Source: Bacteroidales bacterium (GTDB lineage: Bacteria > Bacteroidota > Bacteroidia > Bacteroidales > WCHB1-69). From it: 64,000 nt of DNA. Location: NCBI GenBank assembly GCA_017962845.1, contig JAGCUN010000033.1, positions 1 to 64,000 on the forward strand, given 5' to 3'. Below, piece after piece: positions 45,666-58,112 of this stretch. The notes under the pieces are model-generated. The model saw only the letters and a list, made by a program, of their open reading frames with translations, did no database searches and was not told where the DNA came from. The position numbers and the translations under genes were made by a program. The stretch's first letter is position 1; every line of letters starts with the position of its first letter.

Positions 45666-47045
45666 ATGACCGACCGCGCAACACAACTGGAGCAGAGTAG
45701 TATCGGCAGAATGCTGTTTGTGTTTGCGCTGCCCGCCATCATCGCCACCTCAGCCACTTCTGTTTACAACTTCATCGACCGCATCTTCATCAGCCATGCG
45801 GTAGGCATGTTAGGTTTGGCGGGCATGACGATTGCGTTGCCGGTAATGAACTTAGCCACCGCTTTTGGCACACTGGTAGGAGCTGGTGCCGCCGCCCTCA
45901 CCTCCATCCGTCTCGGCGAACGAGAGAACGACAAAGCCACGCTGATATTGGGTAACGCCCTGCTGCTCAACATCATCATCAGCATCGCCTTCACCATTAT
46001 CGTGCTTCTTTTCCTCGACCCCATCTTGCTGATGTTTGGGGCCAATGAGGTCACCCTCCCCTACGCACGGTCCTTCCTCCAGATCATTCTTGCCGGCAAC
46101 CTCTTCACCCACATACTGTTCGGGCTGAACAGCATCATGCGCGCCAGCGGCTACCCCTTCAAGGCCATGTTCTCCATCCTCATCACCGTGGCCTGCAACC
46201 TCATCCTAGCCCCCATCTTCATCTTCGCCTTCAAGTGGGGGATGCGCGGGGCGGCCAGCGCCACCGTCATCTCACAGTTTGTCGGCATGTGCTGGGTGCT
46301 GGCCCACTTCAGCCGATCGAAATCGCGCATCCATTTCCAGAAAAAGTTCATCCGTATCCACCTCAGAACTGCACTCGCCATTTTCGCTATCGGCCTCTCC
46401 CCTTTCATCATCCATGTCTGTGCATCCCTTATCAACATATTTATTAACAGACAATTAGAACAATACGGAAACTTCGCCATCGCCACCTATGGCATTATTG
46501 CGATCTTACAGTCACTGGTAGTCACCATGGTATTAGGGCTCACGCACGGCATGCAACCCATCGTGGGCTTCAACTACGGGGCGCGCCACATCGACCGCGT
46601 GATGAAGACCTACCGACTCACGCTCCTGTGGGCGACCATCATCTGCGCCACCTTTTTCTTGACTATCGAATGTTTTCCGCAGCAGATAGCCCACATCTTC
46701 ACCGTTGATTCACAAATCATTAGCGCTGTCATCTCCGCCTTGCGCATCAGCTGCGCCGCCTTGCTGGTCGTTGGCTTCCAGATTGTGACCTCCACTTTTT
46801 TCCAAGCCATCAACAAGGCCGTGGTCTCCATCTTCCTATCGCTCCTGCGTCAGCTCATCTTCCTATTGCCTTTCCTGTGGTTTCTTCCCCGACTCTTCTC
46901 CATCAACGGAGTGTGGTGGTCGATGCCGGCCGCCGACTTCTGCGCCGCAGCGGTCACCGCAGTGGTCATGGCATTCGCTACCCGCAAACTCATGCGCCAG
47001 TCCTACCCTTCCCAAATCGAAACTCCAACAACGTCAATCTATTAA
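45666..47045 (+). CDS. MATE family efflux transporter, MepA/NorM-like
   Basis: 459 residues with about twelve hydrophobic segments in two bundles of six. The N-terminal half has SIGRMLFVFALPAIIATSATSVYNFIDRIFISHAVGMLGLAGMTIALPV and GVGAAALTS-like features (LVGAGAAALTSIRLGE). The second half has GLTHGMQPIVGFNYGARHIDRV, characteristic of the MepA-like subgroup. It exports organic cations or drugs by Na+ or H+ antiport across the inner membrane. A VanX-like lipoprotein follows 13 bases downstream; the same pairing recurs at 55.9-58.1 kb with a MATE of a different subfamily. Confidence 0.92.
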   Translation: MTDRATQLEQSSIGRMLFVFALPAIIATSATSVYNFIDRIFISHAVGMLGLAGMTIALPVMNLATAFGTLVGAGAAALTSIRLGERENDKATLILGNALLLNIIISIAFTIIVLLFLDPILLMFGANEVTLPYARSFLQIILAGNLFTHILFGLNSIMRASGYPFKAMFSILITVACNLILAPIFIFAFKWGMRGAASATVISQFVGMCWVLAHFSRSKSRIHFQKKFIRIHLRTALAIFAIGLSPFIIHVCASLINIFINRQLEQYGNFAIATYGIIAILQSLVVTMVLGLTHGMQPIVGFNYGARHIDRVMKTYRLTLLWATIICATFFLTIECFPQQIAHIFTVDSQIISAVISALRISCAALLVVGFQIVTSTFFQAINKAVVSIFLSLLRQLIFLLPFLWFLPRLFSINGVWWSMPAADFCAAAVTAVVMAFATRKLMRQSYPSQIETPTTSIY

Positions 47046-47058
47046 ATCATCCAATATT

Positions 47059-47814
47059 ATGAAAAAAATAGCATCCATCCTCCCCATCATTATCGCACTT
47101 CTATGCTGCACCAACTGCAAACATCCCAAGCTCCCCGCACCTGCCCCAACCCCACAAAAAGATACTGTAAAACAAATAGTTACAAAAGCTGATACGTTGG
47201 CTCCCGACACCGAGACAGAGGCGGCCATGCGGGCGTTAGGGTTGGTGGATATTCAGGAAATCGAGCCGACCATTCAGGTTCATCTGGTCTATTCCACGCC
47301 CGACAATTTCACCCACACAATATTATATAAAGACATCCACAAAGCTTTCATGCTGCCGGTGGTAGCCGACATATTGAAGCGAGCACAGGCGCAGCTCAAG
47401 GCGCAGCATCCCGACTACAGTCTGCTGGTTTACGATGCGGCGCGTCCGCTCAGCGTGCAGTGGGATATGTGGGAGGTTGCAGAAGCCACTAACACAACCT
47501 ATTACGTTGCCGATCCACGCAAGGCACAGGGACTGCACAACTACGGAGCAGCGGTAGATATCACCATTGTGGACGGCCGTGGCGATCCGATCTCCATGGG
47601 CACACCGTTCGACTGGTTCGGGGTCGAGGCGCACATCACGCACGAGGATTCGCTGGTGAAGAGCGGCGCCATCAGTCAGCAGGAGCTAGACAACCGGCTG
47701 CTGCTGCGCAAACTCATGACCGACAACGGAATGCTGACCATCCGTTCAGAGTGGTGGCACTTCGAACTGATGCGCGGTCCTGAAGCGCAAAAGACATTCA
47801 AACTGATAGAATAA
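47059..47814 (+). CDS. M15D-type D-alanyl-D-alanine dipeptidase lipoprotein (VanX-like), copy 1
   Basis: 251 residues. Lipoprotein signal ending CCTNC|KHP (lipid Cys about residue 20), a Pro-rich linker, then the VanX fold: LLVYDAARPLSVQWDMW, the zinc site in GLHNYGAAVDITI (HxxxxxxD) and SEWWHFEL (ExxWH). The zinc-dependent enzyme splits D-Ala-D-Ala or similar cell-wall dipeptides, here at the periplasmic face. It lies 13 bases after a MATE gene and converges with the RluB-type gene (15 bases between stops). Confidence 0.9.
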   Translation: MKKIASILPIIIALLCCTNCKHPKLPAPAPTPQKDTVKQIVTKADTLAPDTETEAAMRALGLVDIQEIEPTIQVHLVYSTPDNFTHTILYKDIHKAFMLPVVADILKRAQAQLKAQHPDYSLLVYDAARPLSVQWDMWEVAEATNTTYYVADPRKAQGLHNYGAAVDITIVDGRGDPISMGTPFDWFGVEAHITHEDSLVKSGAISQQELDNRLLLRKLMTDNGMLTIRSEWWHFELMRGPEAQKTFKLIE

Positions 47815-50527: not shown

Positions 50528-51376
50528 CTACTCCGAAAACCGCTTCATCACCATGTCGGCGTAGGTCTTCGAAAGCGGGATGCGGATGCTGCCCGACTCA
50601 TCGAAAGAGATGTACAACCCCTCTTTATCACGGCTTATAATATTGACTTTCTGCAAATTAACCATATAGGAACGATGGCAGCGCGCAAAGCCGTACTGCG
50701 CCAACTCATCCTCCATGGCCTTGAGCTTGTTGCGCAACATGGCCGTGCTGCTTTTCCCATTATCTATATAATGTATCTTCACGTAATTGTCGTCAGACTC
50801 CAGAAAAAGGATGGTGCTTCGCTTGATGGATAGCCGCAATTTCCCTTTCTCATCCATAAAATTGATGACCTCGTCAGCTTCTCTACCCACATGGCTCTCT
50901 CGGAAATGGCGGCTTTGCAACTCTCTGATTTTTATCTCTTTAGTCTTGATGGCAATAAAAAGATAGGAGATAAGATAAGGGATAACGAGAATGGTGGGGA
51001 TGAAGATGAGGGTTTTTTGGAAGATGATTTGAGCCGGTCGAGGGTCGTGCAAAACAATCTTGGAGATAAAAAGATAAAGGATGGCGATGATGAAGATTTC
51101 CGCGAAAAGCCATAGCACGTAGGCAAGAACTGAAAGTAGTTTCTTCCTGTTGACGAAGTGCATGATGATACGGCTGATGATCATCACCACCACTCCACCG
51201 AGTATGACACAGGTGGAATAGAAGGAGGTCGCTTGGTATTGACTGTCGTTGAACCAGCCGGCATCCTTGAAGGGGGTATATACGTTGACGAAAAATAGTG
51301 AGAAAAAGGTCACAAACATCAAAAGATAGACGTTGGTGGTTTTCTTGGCCAAATATTCAGGTATTCTTTTGTTCAT
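50528..51376 (-). CDS. Membrane-bound LytTR-family transcriptional regulator
   Basis: 282 residues from the ATG at 51376 (MNKRIPEYLAKK). A farther in-frame start at 51403 would overlap the -7 box at 51401-51408 and is rejected. Four hydrophobic segments (about residues 18-33, 55-77, 82-105, 120-145) put the N-terminal half in the inner membrane. A linker with charged helices leads to a C-terminal LytTR domain (LRLSIKRSTILFLESDDNYVKIHYIDN, MEDELAQYGFARCHRSYMVNLQKVNIISRDKEG, RIPLSKTYADMVMKRF). There is no receiver or kinase domain, so it would sense a membrane signal and bind DNA directly. Three spaced direct repeats lie immediately upstream and are the probable operator. Confidence 0.9.
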   Translation of the reverse strand: MNKRIPEYLAKKTTNVYLLMFVTFFSLFFVNVYTPFKDAGWFNDSQYQATSFYSTCVILGGVVVMIISRIIMHFVNRKKLLSVLAYVLWLFAEIFIIAILYLFISKIVLHDPRPAQIIFQKTLIFIPTILVIPYLISYLFIAIKTKEIKIRELQSRHFRESHVGREADEVINFMDEKGKLRLSIKRSTILFLESDDNYVKIHYIDNGKSSTAMLRNKLKAMEDELAQYGFARCHRSYMVNLQKVNIISRDKEGLYISFDESGSIRIPLSKTYADMVMKRFSE

Positions 51377-51400
51377 TTTCGCCCCATTTTTTGCGGGGTG

Positions 51401-51408
51401 CAAAATTA
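51401..51408 (-). promoter_or_regulatory. Putative -7 promoter element of the LytTR gene
   Basis: The minus strand reads TAATTTTG, 24 bases upstream of the ATG at 51376. The first TTCACCACA repeat begins 12 bases farther upstream, where a -33 box would be expected. Confidence 0.55.
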
Positions 51409-51420
51409 CACAAATTATTT

Positions 51421-51469
51421 TTCACCACATAATTCAAAAATTCACCCCAAATTTTAAAATTTCACCCCA
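51421..51469. promoter_or_regulatory. Candidate LytTR operator: three 9-bp direct repeats at 20-bp spacing
   Basis: TTCACCACA at 51421, TTCACCCCA at 51441 and TTCACCCCA at 51461 are each separated start-to-start by exactly 20 bp, about two helical turns, with AT-rich 11-bp spacers. LytTR proteins such as AgrA bind 9-bp direct repeats with 12-13 bp spacers, which this closely resembles. A fourth, weaker copy TTCGCCCCA overlaps the LytTR start at 51378. The site lies between the divergent LytTR and ligase-fusion genes, so it could control both. Confidence 0.7.
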
Positions 51470-51551
51470 CAAAACGGTTGTAAGTACCTTTTTTTCAATA
51501 TGAATGAAAAAATGATGTTCTTTTGCCGCCGAAAAACCTAAACCTTTCATC

Positions 51552-54038
51552 ATGTTAGAAAATAGAAACAAAGTGGCGGTCAAATACCGCAACACTGTTT
51601 ATACTTATGAGCAGCTTCTGAAGCTCTCCGTATGTTATGCACGACATTTTTCCACCATACCCAATGTTGACAAGGTGGCCATTTTCGCCGAGAATTCCCC
51701 TGAATGGATTTTCGCTTTCTATGGTGCCGTACGCAACGGCAGCGTGGTGGTGCCCATCGACGTGCTCTCCACCCCGAAAGAAATCGCTTACATCCTCAAC
51801 GACTGTCGCCCCGAGATCGTCTTCACCTCACCGGCAAAGAAAAACACGCTGGAGCAGGCCATCGCCATGGTGGAGGACTACCGGTGTGCGGTCGTTGTCA
51901 GCGAGGATGTGGAAATCTCACGTATCGCAGAATTACCTGCTTCGCCGATTGAAAATCGTCCGCTCAGCGACACCCTGCTCATCATCTACACCTCCGGCAC
52001 CACGGGCAGTCCGAAAGGGGTGATGCTCAGCACCCGCAACGTGCTATATAATATAGATGCCGTATCGAAGCAGGTGCCCATCTTTACCGCCAATCGCAAC
52101 GTGATGATTCTCTTGCCGTTGCACCATGCCTTCCCGCTGATGGGGTCGCTCATCGCACCGCTCTATGTGGGTGGCACGGTCTGTATCGCCGATGGCATGA
52201 ACGCCGAGAGCATCCTTTCAACGCTGAACAACGGCAAGGTCAGCATCATCATTGGGGTGCCGCGTCTGTACGACATGTTGGCCAAAGGTATGATGGCGAA
52301 GGTGAATGCCCATCCGCTGGCGCGCCTCATCTACAAAACCGCCCGCTTCGTCGGCAGCCGCTGGTTGTCGAAGGTGCTTTTCCGCAGCGTGCATCAGAAG
52401 TTCGGCGGCCATATCGACTATCTGGTCTCTGGTGGTGCGGCTCTGTCGGATAGTACCGCCGAGGTGTTCAAAACCTTTGGTTTCTACGTGCTGGAAGGCT
52501 ACGGCATGACCGAAACCGCCCCGATGATCAGCTTCACCCGTCCCGGTGAGCGCAAAATCGGCTTTGTGGGCCGTCCGCTGCCCGGCATAGAGGTGCGCAT
52601 CGACGAGCAGGGGGAGGTGTGCGTGAAGGGCGACAACGTGATGGAAGGCTACTACCACCGTCCCGAAGAAACCGCAGCCATCCTCCGCGACGGCTGGCTG
52701 CACACCGGCGACATCGGAATCCTCGGCAAGCACGGCCTGAAACTGACCGGCCGCCTCAAAGACATCATCGTCACCCCGAACGGCAAGAATATCAATCCAG
52801 AAAACATGGAGGCCGAAATGGTGGCATTCTCTGAGATGTTCAAGGAGGTGGGCATCTTTATGGAAGGCGGTATCCTACAGGCGATTATCCGTCCCGAGAT
52901 GTCGGCCCTGCGCGACAAGTACGTGGAAAACCTCCATGAGGTGCTGAAAGATGTGGTGGCCGATTTCAACCAGACGCAGGCTTCCTACAAGCGCATCCAG
53001 CGCTTCCATGTGGTGTCGTGCGAACTGCCCAAAACGCGCCTCGGCAAGGTGCAGCATTTTATGCTCCCCTCGCTGATGGAAGAGGTGGGCAAGTCGCGCC
53101 AGGAGGACGAGATGGAGAACCCCTCCCCTATTTATCTCATCCTTAAGAAATATCTCGAAGCTGAAACCAACCGCACGGTTCATCCGCACGACCATTTCGA
53201 AATCGACCTCGCCATGGACTCACTCTCCCGTGTGGCGCTGATGGCCTTTATCTACTCTAATTTCGGGGTGCAAATCGATGAGGTGAAGATGGACGAACTC
53301 AACAACTTGTCGGTTCTTGCCGAATACTTGGAGCAGCACGTTTCCGATGAGCAGATTTCGCAGGAGGTGGTGTCATGGGAAAGCATATTGCTGGGCAATA
53401 TTGCTGATATACAGCTTCCTAATCCGGGATTCGTCCAGCTCATCACCCGTACGGTGTGCGATTTCTTGGTGCGCATTTTCTGTCGCTGCAAGTCAAAAGG
53501 ACAGGAGAACATCCCCGATGAGGCCTGCATCATCGTGGCCAACCACCGCAGCGCCCTCGACGGCGTGTTCATCACCTCGCAGATGCGGCTTTTTTCCGCC
53601 AGAAAGACTTTCATTTTCGCCAAAGCCAAGCATTGGAAAAGCCGTTTCGCCCGCTTTATGGCCAAGGAAAATAATGTGATTCTGATGGATATCAACAAAA
53701 ACCTCACCGAATCGTTGCGCCAGATGGCGGCCGCCCTGCGGAAAGGCAAGAAGGTGATTATCTTCCCCGAAGGGATGCGCTCGAAAGACAACCGTCTGCA
53801 CGAGTTCCGCGACACTTTCGCCATCCTGAGCCGCACGCTGAACGTGCCGATTGTGCCGGTGGCGATAGAAGGCTCCGAGAGTGCAGTGTACGACAACATC
53901 GCGTTGCCGCGCTTCCAAAATAGGGTGGATGTGAAATTTATGAAACCCATCTATCCGACTGGAAGTAAGAGCGCTAAAGTTTTGAAAGATAGGGTATTCA
54001 GACTGTTTAAGGATGTCTTGGAGACGGGAAGGAGGTAG
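51552..54038 (+). CDS. Three-domain acyl-activating enzyme: AMP-binding ligase, acyl carrier domain, 1-acylglycerol-3-phosphate-type acyltransferase
   Basis: 828 residues. Residues 1 to about 510 are an adenylate-forming ligase: IIYTSGTTGSPKGVMLS (about 146-162), YGMTETAP, and the hinge/C-terminal GWLHTGDIGILGKHGLKLTGRLKDIIVTPNGKNINPENME. Residues about 525-600 are a phosphopantetheine carrier domain with the attachment Ser557 in AMDSLSRV. Residues about 625-828 are a PlsC-like acyltransferase with NHRSALD (His665, Asp670) and FPEGMRS. The protein could activate a fatty acid, hold it on its own carrier domain and pass it to a lysophospholipid, analogous to E. coli Aas with a built-in ACP. Divergent from the LytTR gene across the operator. 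The N-terminus is short, as in cytoplasmic long-chain acyl-ACP ligases. Confidence 0.9.
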   Translation: MLENRNKVAVKYRNTVYTYEQLLKLSVCYARHFSTIPNVDKVAIFAENSPEWIFAFYGAVRNGSVVVPIDVLSTPKEIAYILNDCRPEIVFTSPAKKNTLEQAIAMVEDYRCAVVVSEDVEISRIAELPASPIENRPLSDTLLIIYTSGTTGSPKGVMLSTRNVLYNIDAVSKQVPIFTANRNVMILLPLHHAFPLMGSLIAPLYVGGTVCIADGMNAESILSTLNNGKVSIIIGVPRLYDMLAKGMMAKVNAHPLARLIYKTARFVGSRWLSKVLFRSVHQKFGGHIDYLVSGGAALSDSTAEVFKTFGFYVLEGYGMTETAPMISFTRPGERKIGFVGRPLPGIEVRIDEQGEVCVKGDNVMEGYYHRPEETAAILRDGWLHTGDIGILGKHGLKLTGRLKDIIVTPNGKNINPENMEAEMVAFSEMFKEVGIFMEGGILQAIIRPEMSALRDKYVENLHEVLKDVVADFNQTQASYKRIQRFHVVSCELPKTRLGKVQHFMLPSLMEEVGKSRQEDEMENPSPIYLILKKYLEAETNRTVHPHDHFEIDLAMDSLSRVALMAFIYSNFGVQIDEVKMDELNNLSVLAEYLEQHVSDEQISQEVVSWESILLGNIADIQLPNPGFVQLITRTVCDFLVRIFCRCKSKGQENIPDEACIIVANHRSALDGVFITSQMRLFSARKTFIFAKAKHWKSRFARFMAKENNVILMDINKNLTESLRQMAAALRKGKKVIIFPEGMRSKDNRLHEFRDTFAILSRTLNVPIVPVAIEGSESAVYDNIALPRFQNRVDVKFMKPIYPTGSKSAKVLKDRVFRLFKDVLETGRR

Positions 54039-54085: not shown

Positions 54086-55855
54086 CTATTGTACCACAAC
54101 TTTTCTCGTGTGAATGTTCTGCCCTTCTTTTATCCGTACCATATAAACACCTCTTTTCCAATTCGATACATTGATAGAGGTGTACTGGTCTTGTGAATAC
54201 CCATGGTACACCCGCTTCCCGCTCATGTCGTAAACCTCAATGTCGATGGGAGCAGCCGCGTCGTTTTGGAGGTTGAGCTGTCCGCTGCTGACAGGGTTGG
54301 GGTAGAGGGTGAAAGTATTCGGGAATTCTTCGTAGGAGTCCAACAGCGCATATATGTCCAGATACCAAATTGCCGTGTCATGGTGAGGGGTTGTGACGCA
54401 ATATGTAATTTGACGGAAAACCCATGCTTCAATTGTAGTATCATAAGGATATGGATTGTCAAAAATTGGAGTATAAGTGACTCCCAGAGGCACTTGTAGA
54501 TAGATTTCATCTAATGAAGCAGATGGTTCGCAATCATAATTTTCTACATAAATATATGGGGAGTCGATTCCACAATCCCAATCGAATAAGCCAAAGTTGG
54601 GATCCAAATGGAAATATGAACTCACGCCCTCTACTGTCGGGTAGAGCGGCAGGATGGGTTCAAACTCCACCAGACCGAGGTTCGACTGGTCGTGCTGGTG
54701 CAGGATGACACTCTCGGCAAAGGCCGTGTCGTTGTTGCCCCAGTAGTTGCCGATGGCGGTCACGTCCAGTGTGGAGTACTGGCTCATAGCAAAGGCATAC
54801 AGCTCGTCGTTGTTGGCGTTGTCGTACAGTACGTTACGTCCCCAGTCGTTGGCAGTCCCCATGTCGATATGGTAGCGGTAAACGGCCGTCACGCCCCACA
54901 GGTTGCCCGCGATGATGTTGCGCCGGATCTTGGCGTAGCAGGTGGTGTCGTAGCCGTAGATGGAGATGCCGCTGCCCCCATTCATCGGGTCGGTCTCCAA
55001 GTTGTTGTCGGTGATGATGTTGTCGAGAATCTCCGCCGAGATGTTGGTGCCGGTCTGCGTGTAGCCGTAGCGGTTGTGGGTGATGGTGTTGCCCGACAGT
55101 AGCACCTGTGTCACCTGTTCGGCCCCCACCAGGTTGGAGATGGCGATGCCACCACTCATCGTGCTGGCCACGCCCTCGATGCGGTTGCCGGTGATGACGA
55201 TGGTGTCGGTGCCGCCGGTACCCAAGTTGATTTGCGGATTGTTGGTATTGTCTAATACATTGTTATAGAGAATGTTATTGGTGATAACGGGCGAGCTGGA
55301 TGCGTTGGCAGGCGACTGGATCGCCGCGGCATGGTTGTCGTGAAAATGGCAGCCGGTAATCACAGGGTTGCAGTTCATCATGCGCACGGCGGATTCCGCA
55401 AAACCGGTGAACTCGCAGTGGCGGAGGGTGAACTCGCCGTCGGTCAGGAATATGTCATTTCCATCCTCAAATAAAATATGCTGTAAAAGTCCCACCGAAC
55501 CCTCCTCCAAGCGCCACTCGTAGGAAGCGCTTTCGGCATTCTCGCGTTCGGAGGTGACCGTCAGCAGGTCGGTGCGTTCTGCGCTGGTTAGTACTCCCTG
55601 TATGGTGATAGTCAGTTCGTTATGAAGAACGAGCTGCTGCAAGGTGGCATCCAAAAAGAGGGTGTCATTCGCCGAAAGGGTGAGGTTTTCGTGCAGATGG
55701 TACACTCCCGGCTCCGTGCAGATCACCGCTTCGGGATAGGCAGTCGCAAGGTCCGTTAGCGTGTATTTCGTTCCATTGCCGTCGGTTACGATTTGTGCTT
55801 GAACGTTTATAAATAGTAAAATAATGAAAGATAAGAAGATAAATCTTGTTTTCAT
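54086..55855 (-). CDS. T9SS-exported parallel beta-helix protein with C-terminal type A sorting domain
   Basis: 589 residues from the ATG at 55855, chosen because GGAGG lies 8 bases upstream; an ATG at 55861 is also in frame. Signal peptide KTRFIFLSFIILLFINVQAQ. Residues about 30-400 are Asn- and Ile/Val-rich with beta-helix rungs (INLGTGGTDTIVITGNRIEGVAS, VLLSGNTITHNRYGYTQTGTN, AEILDNIITDNNLETD, AKIRRNIIAGNLWGV). The C-terminal 75 residues are a T9SS type A sorting domain (FTLYPNPVSSGQLNLQN, IDIEVYDMSGKRVYHG, KRGVYMVRIKEGQNIHTRKVVVQ). It is therefore surface-exposed or released. Beta-helix repeats suggest glycan binding or cleavage, but I see no catalytic motif. Confidence 0.9.
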   Translation of the reverse strand: MKTRFIFLSFIILLFINVQAQIVTDGNGTKYTLTDLATAYPEAVICTEPGVYHLHENLTLSANDTLFLDATLQQLVLHNELTITIQGVLTSAERTDLLTVTSERENAESASYEWRLEEGSVGLLQHILFEDGNDIFLTDGEFTLRHCEFTGFAESAVRMMNCNPVITGCHFHDNHAAAIQSPANASSSPVITNNILYNNVLDNTNNPQINLGTGGTDTIVITGNRIEGVASTMSGGIAISNLVGAEQVTQVLLSGNTITHNRYGYTQTGTNISAEILDNIITDNNLETDPMNGGSGISIYGYDTTCYAKIRRNIIAGNLWGVTAVYRYHIDMGTANDWGRNVLYDNANNDELYAFAMSQYSTLDVTAIGNYWGNNDTAFAESVILHQHDQSNLGLVEFEPILPLYPTVEGVSSYFHLDPNFGLFDWDCGIDSPYIYVENYDCEPSASLDEIYLQVPLGVTYTPIFDNPYPYDTTIEAWVFRQITYCVTTPHHDTAIWYLDIYALLDSYEEFPNTFTLYPNPVSSGQLNLQNDAAAPIDIEVYDMSGKRVYHGYSQDQYTSINVSNWKRGVYMVRIKEGQNIHTRKVVVQ

Positions 55856-55912
55856 ATTCATTTCCTCCCTATTTTTGAATGGGCAAATTTACTCAATTTT
55901 TCTAAAAATGCG

Positions 55913-55920
55913 TATCTTTG
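55913..55920 (+). promoter_or_regulatory. Putative -7 promoter element of the second MATE gene
   Basis: TATCTTTG (TAnnTTTG), followed by CATCC, ends 17 bases before the ATG at 55938. It argues against the earlier in-frame start at 55824. No -33 box at standard spacing. Confidence 0.5.
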
Positions 55921-55937
55921 CATCCGAAATTTTCATC

Positions 55938-57248
55938 ATGAGCAAAATCAACAGGGAAGTCCTTAAACTCGCTATTCCCAGCATTTTAGCCAATATTACC
56001 ATCCCGTTGGTGGGACTGGTCGATGTGGCCATCATCGGACATATCTCCGATGCGACGGCCATCGGCGGCATCGCCATCGGCACGCTGCTCTTCGACTTGC
56101 TGTATTGGAATTTCGGCTTTCTCCGCGTCGGCACCAGCGGCCTCACCGCACAGGCATACGGCGCCCAAGATGACCGGTTGGCGGTGGGTATGTTCCGCCA
56201 GAACCTGCTGTTAGCATTTTTCTCCACCCTCTTGGTGTGGGCCATCCAGTGGCTGTTTTTGACCGTCGCCCTCAAGTGCATTCCCTGCACGCCCGAAGTG
56301 GCCGATTTCGCCAGCCAATATTTCTACATCCGCATCTGGGCCGCCCCGGCCACTCTTTCCCTCATGATGTTCAAAGGCTGGTTCATCGGTATGCAGAACA
56401 CGATAGCCCCGATGGTCTGCGACATTGTGGTCAACGTGGTGAACATGGCGGCCAGCTACCTGCTGGCGTTCCACACCTCGCTCGGCATGTTGGGCGTGGC
56501 GCACGGCACCGTCATCGCACAATATGTGGGACTGCTGACGGCAGTGTCCTTCTTGCTGATTCTTTATGGCAAGATGTTCAAACTTTATTTCTTTGAAAAT
56601 AAGGTATTTAAGAATATAAAGAAGGTGGCGAAACTGGCGGGCAACCTGTTTGTCCGGTCCGTGGGTTTTATGGTGATTTATGTCGGATTTACGGCGATAG
56701 CCTCCAAATATGGGGATGAGCAGTTGGCTGTGAGCACCATCATGATGAAGCTTTTCATGCTTTTTTCTTATTTTGTGGATGGCTTTGCGTATGCCGGCGA
56801 GGCACTTACGGGCCGTTTCATCGGTGCTGGCGACCGTCCCAACCTCGACCGCTCGGTGCGCATCCTCTTTTACTGGACCATCGGGGTGGGCGTGGCCTTC
56901 ACGCTCTTCTTTGCCATCGCCGGCGATGACTCTGTGCGCATCGTAACCTCTGATGCGGCGGTCATCAAGGCCTCGCATCCCTTCCTGCCGTGGCTCATCG
57001 CCATGCCGTTAGTGAGCTGTCTGGCCTTCATGTGGGACGGCATCTTCATCGGGGCTACTGCCGGTGCGGCTGTTCGTAACTGTATGTTATTCGCAGCTTT
57101 AGGATTTGTTTTGGGCTATGTGATATTGCACAAACAAATCGGTATCCAGGCCCTTTATGTTGGGTACTTCGTTCATCTGCTCGTTCGTGCCATCTACCTC
57201 TCGTTCCGTTGGCCTTCTGTGAAGGCGAAGTCTTTCGCACATTCCTGA
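55938..57248 (+). CDS. MATE family efflux transporter, DinF-like
   Basis: 436 residues from the ATG at 55938 (MSKINREVLKLAIPSILANITIPLVGLVDVAIIGHISDATAIGGIAIG). An upstream in-frame start at 55824 lies before the -7 box and overlaps the divergent gene. About twelve membrane segments. The N-terminal GLVDVAIIGH and the loop FLRVGTSGLTAQAYGA are DinF-subfamily features; MWDGIFIGAT is in the second half. It exports toxic organic compounds by cation antiport. Followed after 90 bases by a VanX-like lipoprotein, as for the unrelated MATE at 45.7 kb. Confidence 0.92.
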   Translation: MSKINREVLKLAIPSILANITIPLVGLVDVAIIGHISDATAIGGIAIGTLLFDLLYWNFGFLRVGTSGLTAQAYGAQDDRLAVGMFRQNLLLAFFSTLLVWAIQWLFLTVALKCIPCTPEVADFASQYFYIRIWAAPATLSLMMFKGWFIGMQNTIAPMVCDIVVNVVNMAASYLLAFHTSLGMLGVAHGTVIAQYVGLLTAVSFLLILYGKMFKLYFFENKVFKNIKKVAKLAGNLFVRSVGFMVIYVGFTAIASKYGDEQLAVSTIMMKLFMLFSYFVDGFAYAGEALTGRFIGAGDRPNLDRSVRILFYWTIGVGVAFTLFFAIAGDDSVRIVTSDAAVIKASHPFLPWLIAMPLVSCLAFMWDGIFIGATAGAAVRNCMLFAALGFVLGYVILHKQIGIQALYVGYFVHLLVRAIYLSFRWPSVKAKSFAHS

Positions 57249-57290
57249 AATCATTTCCATAAAACGCCTTTTCACAAGTCAACTTTTTAG

Positions 57291-57298
57291 TATTTTTG
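57291..57298 (+). promoter_or_regulatory. Putative -7 promoter element of the second VanX-like gene
   Basis: TATTTTTG ends 40 bases before the ATG at 57339, in the spacer after the MATE gene. The dipeptidase gene may therefore be transcribed independently of it. Confidence 0.45.
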
Positions 57299-57338
57299 CC
57301 TGTCCTATTTTATTGGTTATAATAATTGTTTTAATAAT

Positions 57339-58112
57339 ATGAAAATTAGCAAGTTAGTATTTGTATTCAGCATGATGGCCGTTCTTCTTTTGGGGGGATG
57401 TGCTAAAAATGATGTCCAAAATTCATCCGAAAAGAAAACCAAAGAGCTGGCCGACGATCCGAGCGGTTTTGTGGTGATTACTGATGTGGTGCCCGATGCC
57501 ATTCTCGAAATCCGCTATTACAGCACCTATAATTTCATTGGCTCGCGCATAGATGGTTATCTTGAACCCACGGCATTGCTCACCCGTCAGGCCGCCGATA
57601 GTCTGCGTGCCGTCAGCGATGAGTTGCTGCAACAAGGCTACCGCCTCAAAATTTTCGACGCTTACCGCCCGCAATGCGCTGTAGATCATTTCGTGCAGTG
57701 GGGTAAAGACCTCAACGACACGCTCATGAAACAGTATTTTTACCCCGATCTCGACAAGGCCGTCCTGTTCGACCAGGGTTATATCGCCCGCCGCAGCGGT
57801 CACTCGCGCGGTTCAACCGTCGATCTCACTCTCTTCGACATGACCTCCGAAAGGGAGGTGGATATGGGCGGCACCTTCGACTGGTTTGGCGTTGAAAGCC
57901 ATCCCGACTTTGGAGGAAATCCAGAAACGGCTGAATATCAGAAGGGTAAAAGGATTACGGAAGAGCAATTCCAACATCGTATGATTCTTCGTAAGGCGAT
58001 GTTGAAGCATGGTTTCAAACCCTACGATGAAGAATGGTGGCATTTCACCCTGGCCAACGAACCCTATCCCGATACCTATTTCAGATTCCCAGTTCAGAAT
58101 TTGAGTCGATAA
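57339..58112 (+). CDS. M15D-type D-alanyl-D-alanine dipeptidase lipoprotein (VanX-like), copy 2
   Basis: 257 residues. Lipoprotein signal ending LLGGC|AKN (lipid Cys about residue 21). The mature domain carries EIRYYSTYNFIG and KIFDAYRPQCAVDHF, typical of VanX/DdpX, the zinc site SGHSRGSTVDLTL and the catalytic ExxWH in DEEWWHFTL. It hydrolyses D-Ala-D-Ala-type dipeptides at the periplasmic side. It is clearly a different paralogue from the copy at 47.1 kb (longer insertion after DWFGVESH). Followed by the aldolase after 24 bases. Confidence 0.92.
   Translation: MKISKLVFVFSMMAVLLLGGCAKNDVQNSSEKKTKELADDPSGFVVITDVVPDAILEIRYYSTYNFIGSRIDGYLEPTALLTRQAADSLRAVSDELLQQGYRLKIFDAYRPQCAVDHFVQWGKDLNDTLMKQYFYPDLDKAVLFDQGYIARRSGHSRGSTVDLTLFDMTSEREVDMGGTFDWFGVESHPDFGGNPETAEYQKGKRITEEQFQHRMILRKAMLKHGFKPYDEEWWHFTLANEPYPDTYFRFPVQNLSR

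Follow-up and report, generated by a model that had tools for sequence, protein, structure and literature searches.

A phased direct-repeat array upstream of Bacteroidales fatty-acid genes, likely bound by an adjacent membrane LytTR protein

The 9-bp direct repeats lying between a membrane LytTR regulator gene and a divergent acyl ligase fusion gene of a Bacteroidales bacterium were found to be real and not a product of chance, and many Bacteroidales families share the array, with its position, period, and motif all conserved. The repeats are likely the binding array of the adjacent membrane LytTR protein, which would activate the lipid genes; this reading is inferred from sequence alone, with no binding or expression data. 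The window (the whole stretch of DNA that was analysed, 64,000 nucleotides) contains the following features.

50528..51376, minus strand: membrane LytTR regulator, 282 aa, with four predicted TM helices, a cytosolic linker, and a C-terminal LytTR domain (PF04397).
51380..51399, minus strand: small hairpin CACCCC / GGGGCG at the beginning of the leader in the LytTR mRNA, overlapping the "repeat" at 51378 and outside the array.
51401..51408, minus strand: -7 element predicted for the LytTR gene, TAATTTTG, 20 bp from array copy 1.
51420..51428, plus strand: array copy 1, TTTCACCAC, ending 98 bp upstream of the C in the enzyme-promoter TTTGC and also abutting the LytTR promoter.
51440..51448, plus strand: array copy 2, ATTCACCCC, 78 bp upstream of the same C.
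51460..51468, plus strand: array copy 3, TTTCACCCC, 58 bp upstream of the same C.
51480..51488, plus strand: fourth copy, degenerate but in phase, GTAAGTACC, 38 bp upstream of the same C; the family profile shows CCCTT at -40 to -36.
51518..51526, plus strand: -7 element predicted for the divergently transcribed enzyme gene, TTCTTTTG plus C (consensus TAnnTTTG).
51552..54038, plus strand: divergent, putative target gene, 828 aa, consisting of an AMP-binding acyl ligase, a PP-binding (ACP) domain, and a PlsC-type acyltransferase (domain search).

The initial annotation had described three TTCACC(A/C)CA copies, 20 bp apart, at 51421, 51441, and 51461, and this held exactly: TTCACCACA is found at 51421, and TTCACCCCA at both 51441 and 51461, in exact 20-bp steps. 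A degenerate repeat at 51378 had been counted with them. Its sequence, TTCGCCCCA, is present, but membership in the array was rejected, with the element 43 bp from the next copy and off the 20-bp register. A small CCCC...GGGG hairpin in the leader of the LytTR mRNA, with this sequence as its 3′ arm, accounts for it better. The in-phase degenerate copy at 51480-51488, a position kept in the family position profile, had been overlooked. Similar CCCC...GGGG leader hairpins are present in several relatives (L128, L129, L130, L085, and L088).

On both strands of the 64-kb window, motif pairs spaced by 20 or 21 bp occur only at the array. Without mismatch, GGGRYGAAW-N11-GGGRYGAAW has only two sites in the 2.49-Mb genome, the window array and the LytTR locus on contig 30, where a second 4-TM LytTR paralogue (L078, G000:C30:11774-12749) is accompanied by a three-copy GGGACGAAW array and a FadD partner. 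An origin of the repeats by chance, or as the remnant of a short tandem duplication, might be argued from the A+T-richness of the region and the many lone near-matches to the 9-mer in the window. However, this explanation is all but excluded by the 20-bp spacing, which holds throughout the family while the letters of both repeat and spacer drift.

Conservation of the motif and its 20-bp spacing at orthologous loci, proposed at the outset as a check on the operator, was examined and the check was strongly passed. The same family, together with others in its order, supplied 108 LytTR genes for which upstream DNA was available; without near-duplicates, 104 were left. Recurrence of a 9-mer, with at most one mismatch, was scored within 250 bp upstream, and the expectation was derived from dinucleotide shuffles. 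Recurrence at lag 20 was observed in 71 of the 104 regions, compared with 1.8 expected, and at lag 40 in 35 (1.5 expected); lags 21 and 41 were seen in 12 and 13 regions, respectively, and the remaining lags were near background. In the control, consisting of the regions upstream of other genes at the same loci, lag 20 was found in only 4 of 260. The weight-matrix consensus on the LytTR strand is [AT]GGG[GA][TC]GAAA[AT], and two or more matches to the matrix are present in 93/104 regions, with a maximum of seven copies. There were 301 matches, versus 29 in shuffled sequence and 43 on the opposite strand, and the spacings of matched pairs were concentrated at 20 (139 pairs), 21 (17), 40 (51), 41 (22), and 61 bp (17), with no other spacing exceeding five. 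A pattern search of 60 relatives with GGGRYGAAA-N11-GGGRYGAAA (one mismatch) returned 41 matches, most of them upstream of a LytTR gene, compared with 4 for the reversed control. Kinship among the loci means that these counts overstate independence. LytTR homologues were detected in 58 of 295 genomes of the order; at 1e-25, a phylum-wide sample, which held few members of the order, yielded 1 in 296, the window's own genome only. At another locus (L190, G203:C14), a seven-copy TTGTGACGAAAT array lies between a LytTR gene and KASIII, with a variant motif and about the same 20-bp period.

The array also keeps phase with the divergent enzyme promoter, where TTTGC was assigned as the -7 element by rule, without mapped start sites. 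The distance from the array to this TTTGC is 58 or 59 bp in 44 loci, 38 or 39 bp in 6, and 78 or 79 bp in 12, and 62 of 75 loci share one phase of the 20-bp period (18 or 19 mod 20). Alignment of 72 enzyme promoters on TTTGC, without gaps, revealed C-runs at -38, -58, -78, and -98, and no -33 box was conserved among them. The window conforms to this layout: counting back 58, 78, and 98 from position 51526 leads to the last bases of the three copies, with the degenerate copy (51480-51488) ending at -38. The distance to the LytTR gene's own -7 element is scattered across the family, from 13 to over 60 bp, and is about 20 bp from copy 1 in the window's clade.

Activation is inferred from this geometry alone. 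LytTR units would occupy neighbouring repeats along the same face of the DNA, at roughly -38, -58, -78, and -98 from the enzyme-promoter TTTGC, and the bound protein would recruit RNA polymerase to a promoter that has a -7 element without a conserved -33 box, thereby activating the lipid gene. A weaker inference is that the 4-TM part senses the state of the membrane or of fatty acids, and so may couple lipid supply to the genes of fatty-acid activation and synthesis. The direction of control, the signal, the oligomeric form, and self-regulation are all inferred from comparative sequence.

Two rival readings bear on this geometry. In the first, the lipid gene, and perhaps the LytTR gene too, is kept repressed by the LytTR protein until a membrane signal releases it. 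Copy 1, some 20 bp from the LytTR -7 element in the window's clade, could block that promoter, and derepression by fatty acids would make sense for those array-adjoining enzymes that use them. However, the copies lie upstream of the core promoter on one helical face, between -38 and -98, and a conserved -33 box is lacking. Such a layout is that of an activator, and strict phasing at -58 to -98 would be needless for a repressor; we consider repression unlikely. In the second, the array is mainly autoregulatory for the LytTR gene, as in the LytTR Regulatory Systems (LRS), and the lipid gene is a bystander. In LRS operons, the Bacteroides TM-LytTR operons among them, direct repeats immediately precede the operon's own promoter (PMC6193735), and copy 1 abuts the LytTR promoter in the window. 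Against this, the family keeps the distance to the enzyme -7 element and not to the LytTR gene's own, and arrays occur in trans at enzyme genes without a LytTR neighbour, which leaves this reading with very little to recommend it. Returning to activation by the LytTR protein, the lipid gene is taken as the primary target because the array is phased to the enzyme promoter and not to the regulator's own; control of the regulator by itself, as had been proposed, is the weaker inference. Self-regulation in the window genome remains a possibility, with copy 1 adjoining the LytTR gene's own promoter.

The repeats are tied to the adjacent LytTR protein because a loop residue of the LytTR domain covaries with a repeat base. 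Residue 196 and base 4 of the repeat (GGG[G/A]) are correlated with r = 0.84, the highest value among all protein columns; Asp196 occurs with G in 67/69 cases, and residues other than Asp occur with A in 17/20. The two paralogues of the window genome follow the same rule, with Asp/GGGG in the window and Ser/GGGA on contig 30. Reconstruction on the tree suggested about 5 independent changes in the expected direction and about 0 in the opposite direction, and a tree-aware sign test was borderline (median p 0.06, with only about 5 informative pairs). For repeat positions 3, 6, and 7, no covarying column of comparable strength was found. A structure model built from three input sequences (pLDDT 46) places residue 196, with low confidence, in a hairpin loop between predicted strands 188-194 and 198-204; a PDB sequence search returned only a weak LytTR-domain match, 3d6w. 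In AgrA, H169 and R233 make sequence-specific major-groove contacts (PMC12482169). H169 would fall next to position 196, which serves as a lead only. It could be objected that a different transcription factor binds the array, since no binding experiment exists. However, the covariation of base 4 with the LytTR hairpin-loop residue, seen also between two paralogues of one genome, and the tracking of LytTR genes by the array make this very unlikely. The initial annotation's probable LytTR operator is supported, in the absence of binding data, by this comparative evidence.

The partner genes were predominantly those of lipid metabolism. Among 101 loci, the divergent partner is a FadD-type ligase in 45, a DUF6051 hydrolase in 29, KASIII with fab genes in 8, and the fusion in 2. 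The array is present in 78 of the 84 loci with a lipid partner, compared with 7 of the 17 without (Fisher p 5e-6, uncorrected for kinship), and a contig end truncates two of the seven. Arrays without an adjacent LytTR gene were found upstream of KASIII-FabF operons (L179, L180, and L181) and of FadD (L182, L227, and L228). The phase is kept at both: the KASIII distances are 58, 59, 79, and 80 bp, in a set that includes three loci with a LytTR gene nearby, and the FadD trans-array distances are 38 and 58 bp. A phase-constrained search gave 15 matches in 295 genomes of the order and 0 for the control. The regulon searches were done by pattern. Pattern arrays in G015, G019, G036, G221, and G241 fall inside open reading frames and were set aside, and those in G005 and G014 were not traced to a lipid gene. 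One such array, with three copies (L178, G005:C13:67922-67970), lies upstream of an ORF resembling a sigma-54-interaction-type ATPase (named by eye), which is not obviously a lipid gene. Of the further sites in the window genome with at most two mismatches, those examined were mostly in long open frames, and for the sole short-open-frame candidate (L194) TTTGC was not seen at the family distance in the sequence examined.

The assignment of the divergent gene as a ligase-ACP-acyltransferase fusion held, with NHRSALD (an HX4D acyltransferase motif) and a DSL of the ACP attachment type in its sequence, but the fusion is a derived partner of the window's lineage, and the usual partners of the regulator are FadD, DUF6051, or KASIII. 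In the tree, the window regulator falls within the FadD-paired relatives with strong support, and no array was seen upstream of fusion-gene orthologues in other genera, where array control was rejected. Therefore, the fusion joined the operator only in the window's lineage. The evidence for control of the fusion gene is limited to the window genome, one close relative at 97%, and one at 76-77%. In the window genome, the ligase-ACP-PlsC fusion could load fatty acids straight into phospholipid. Two other arrangements were observed: a FadD gene between two divergent LytTR paralogues, of which the second, diverged paralogue has no array (L112, G033:C233:31683-35527), and an array-less LytTR gene with a relative of the ligase-ACP-PlsC fusion some 2-4 kb away (L108, G125:C8).

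The regulator had been described as membrane-embedded without a receiver domain, and this held. Pfam finds only the LytTR domain (PF04397, E 1.7e-16) in the 282-aa protein, and no receiver domain; the N-terminal half consists of four hydrophobic peaks. Family-averaged hydropathy places the four TM peaks near residues 25, 60, 95, and 130, and R69, E93, and P133 are near-invariant across the family. With TM segments and a DNA-binding domain in one polypeptide, without kinase or receiver, the protein meets the criterion for a transmembrane one-component regulator. The criteria for a LytTR-domain regulator are also met, namely the domain itself and direct repeats, each some 9 bp long, that recur about every two turns along the same face of the DNA, with a 20-bp period family-wide. 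An adjacent membrane-inhibitor gene in the same operon, the LRS criterion, is absent at the window locus; the neighbours of the LytTR gene are a 3′ convergent ribosomal-protein-L20-like ORF (named by eye) and the divergent acyl ligase fusion. Farther out, each side of the locus carries a MatE transporter gene with an M15 D-ala-D-ala dipeptidase gene after it (window 45666-47814 and 55824-58112). A recent duplication of the two MatE/M15 pairs was ruled out, as they are only 21% and 28% identical.

The nearest known systems are the LRS (HdrRM and BrsRM) and the LRS-like operons of Bacteroides (Zou et al. 2018, PMC6193735). Like the window system, LRS have a membrane-tied LytTR regulator and promoters preceded by direct repeats spaced by about two helical turns, and the Bacteroides LytTR protein likewise has several TM segments. 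However, LRS are autoregulated operons with a separate membrane inhibitor and two repeats separated by a 12-bp spacer, and the Bacteroides LRS-like repeats are 11 bp long, with an 11-bp spacer, and of the TCCGG/ACCGG type, whereas the window-type system lacks a partner membrane protein and has as many as 7 copies at 20-bp intervals, a different motif, and phasing to a divergent lipid gene. AgrA and ComE share the DNA-binding domain family and the direct repeats. Regulators of that type are soluble, with a phosphorylated receiver domain, in place of which the window regulator has a 4-TM domain. ToxR and TcpP, surveyed among transmembrane transcription regulators (PMC10269533), are similarly one-component and act from the membrane; they are not known to be LytTR proteins. 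FadR, FabT, and FapR control fatty-acid genes, as is proposed here, but they are soluble proteins with unrelated domains that bind acyl-CoA, acyl-ACP, or malonyl-CoA.

That DUF6051 occurs together with LytTR and a fatty-acid ligase is already on record (PMC11878206); no account of an operator, promoter phasing, or regulon was found there. No description of the array, its phasing, the regulon, or such a Bacteroidales fatty-acid regulator was found in the literature searched, which covered few subscription journals. The sharing of the array across rumen and related Bacteroidales, at a fixed distance before fatty-acid genes, points to an undescribed lipid-control circuit. A bolder reading, which could as readily prove wrong as right, is that dedicated 4-TM LytTR activators on phased multi-copy arrays regulate fatty-acid activation and synthesis in Bacteroidales by sensing the membrane lipid state directly, and that new lipid genes have been recruited once they came to lie beside the regulator and its array; its targets would be FadD, KASIII-fab operons, DUF6051 hydrolases, and ligase-ACP-PlsC fusions. 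The result supplies an operator code, a candidate specificity residue, and a small regulon, testable in a cultured relative, and DUF6051, a family of unknown function, gains a likely place in fatty-acid metabolism. If true, this would be a one-component system in which lipid sensing and DNA recognition would reside in a single membrane protein.
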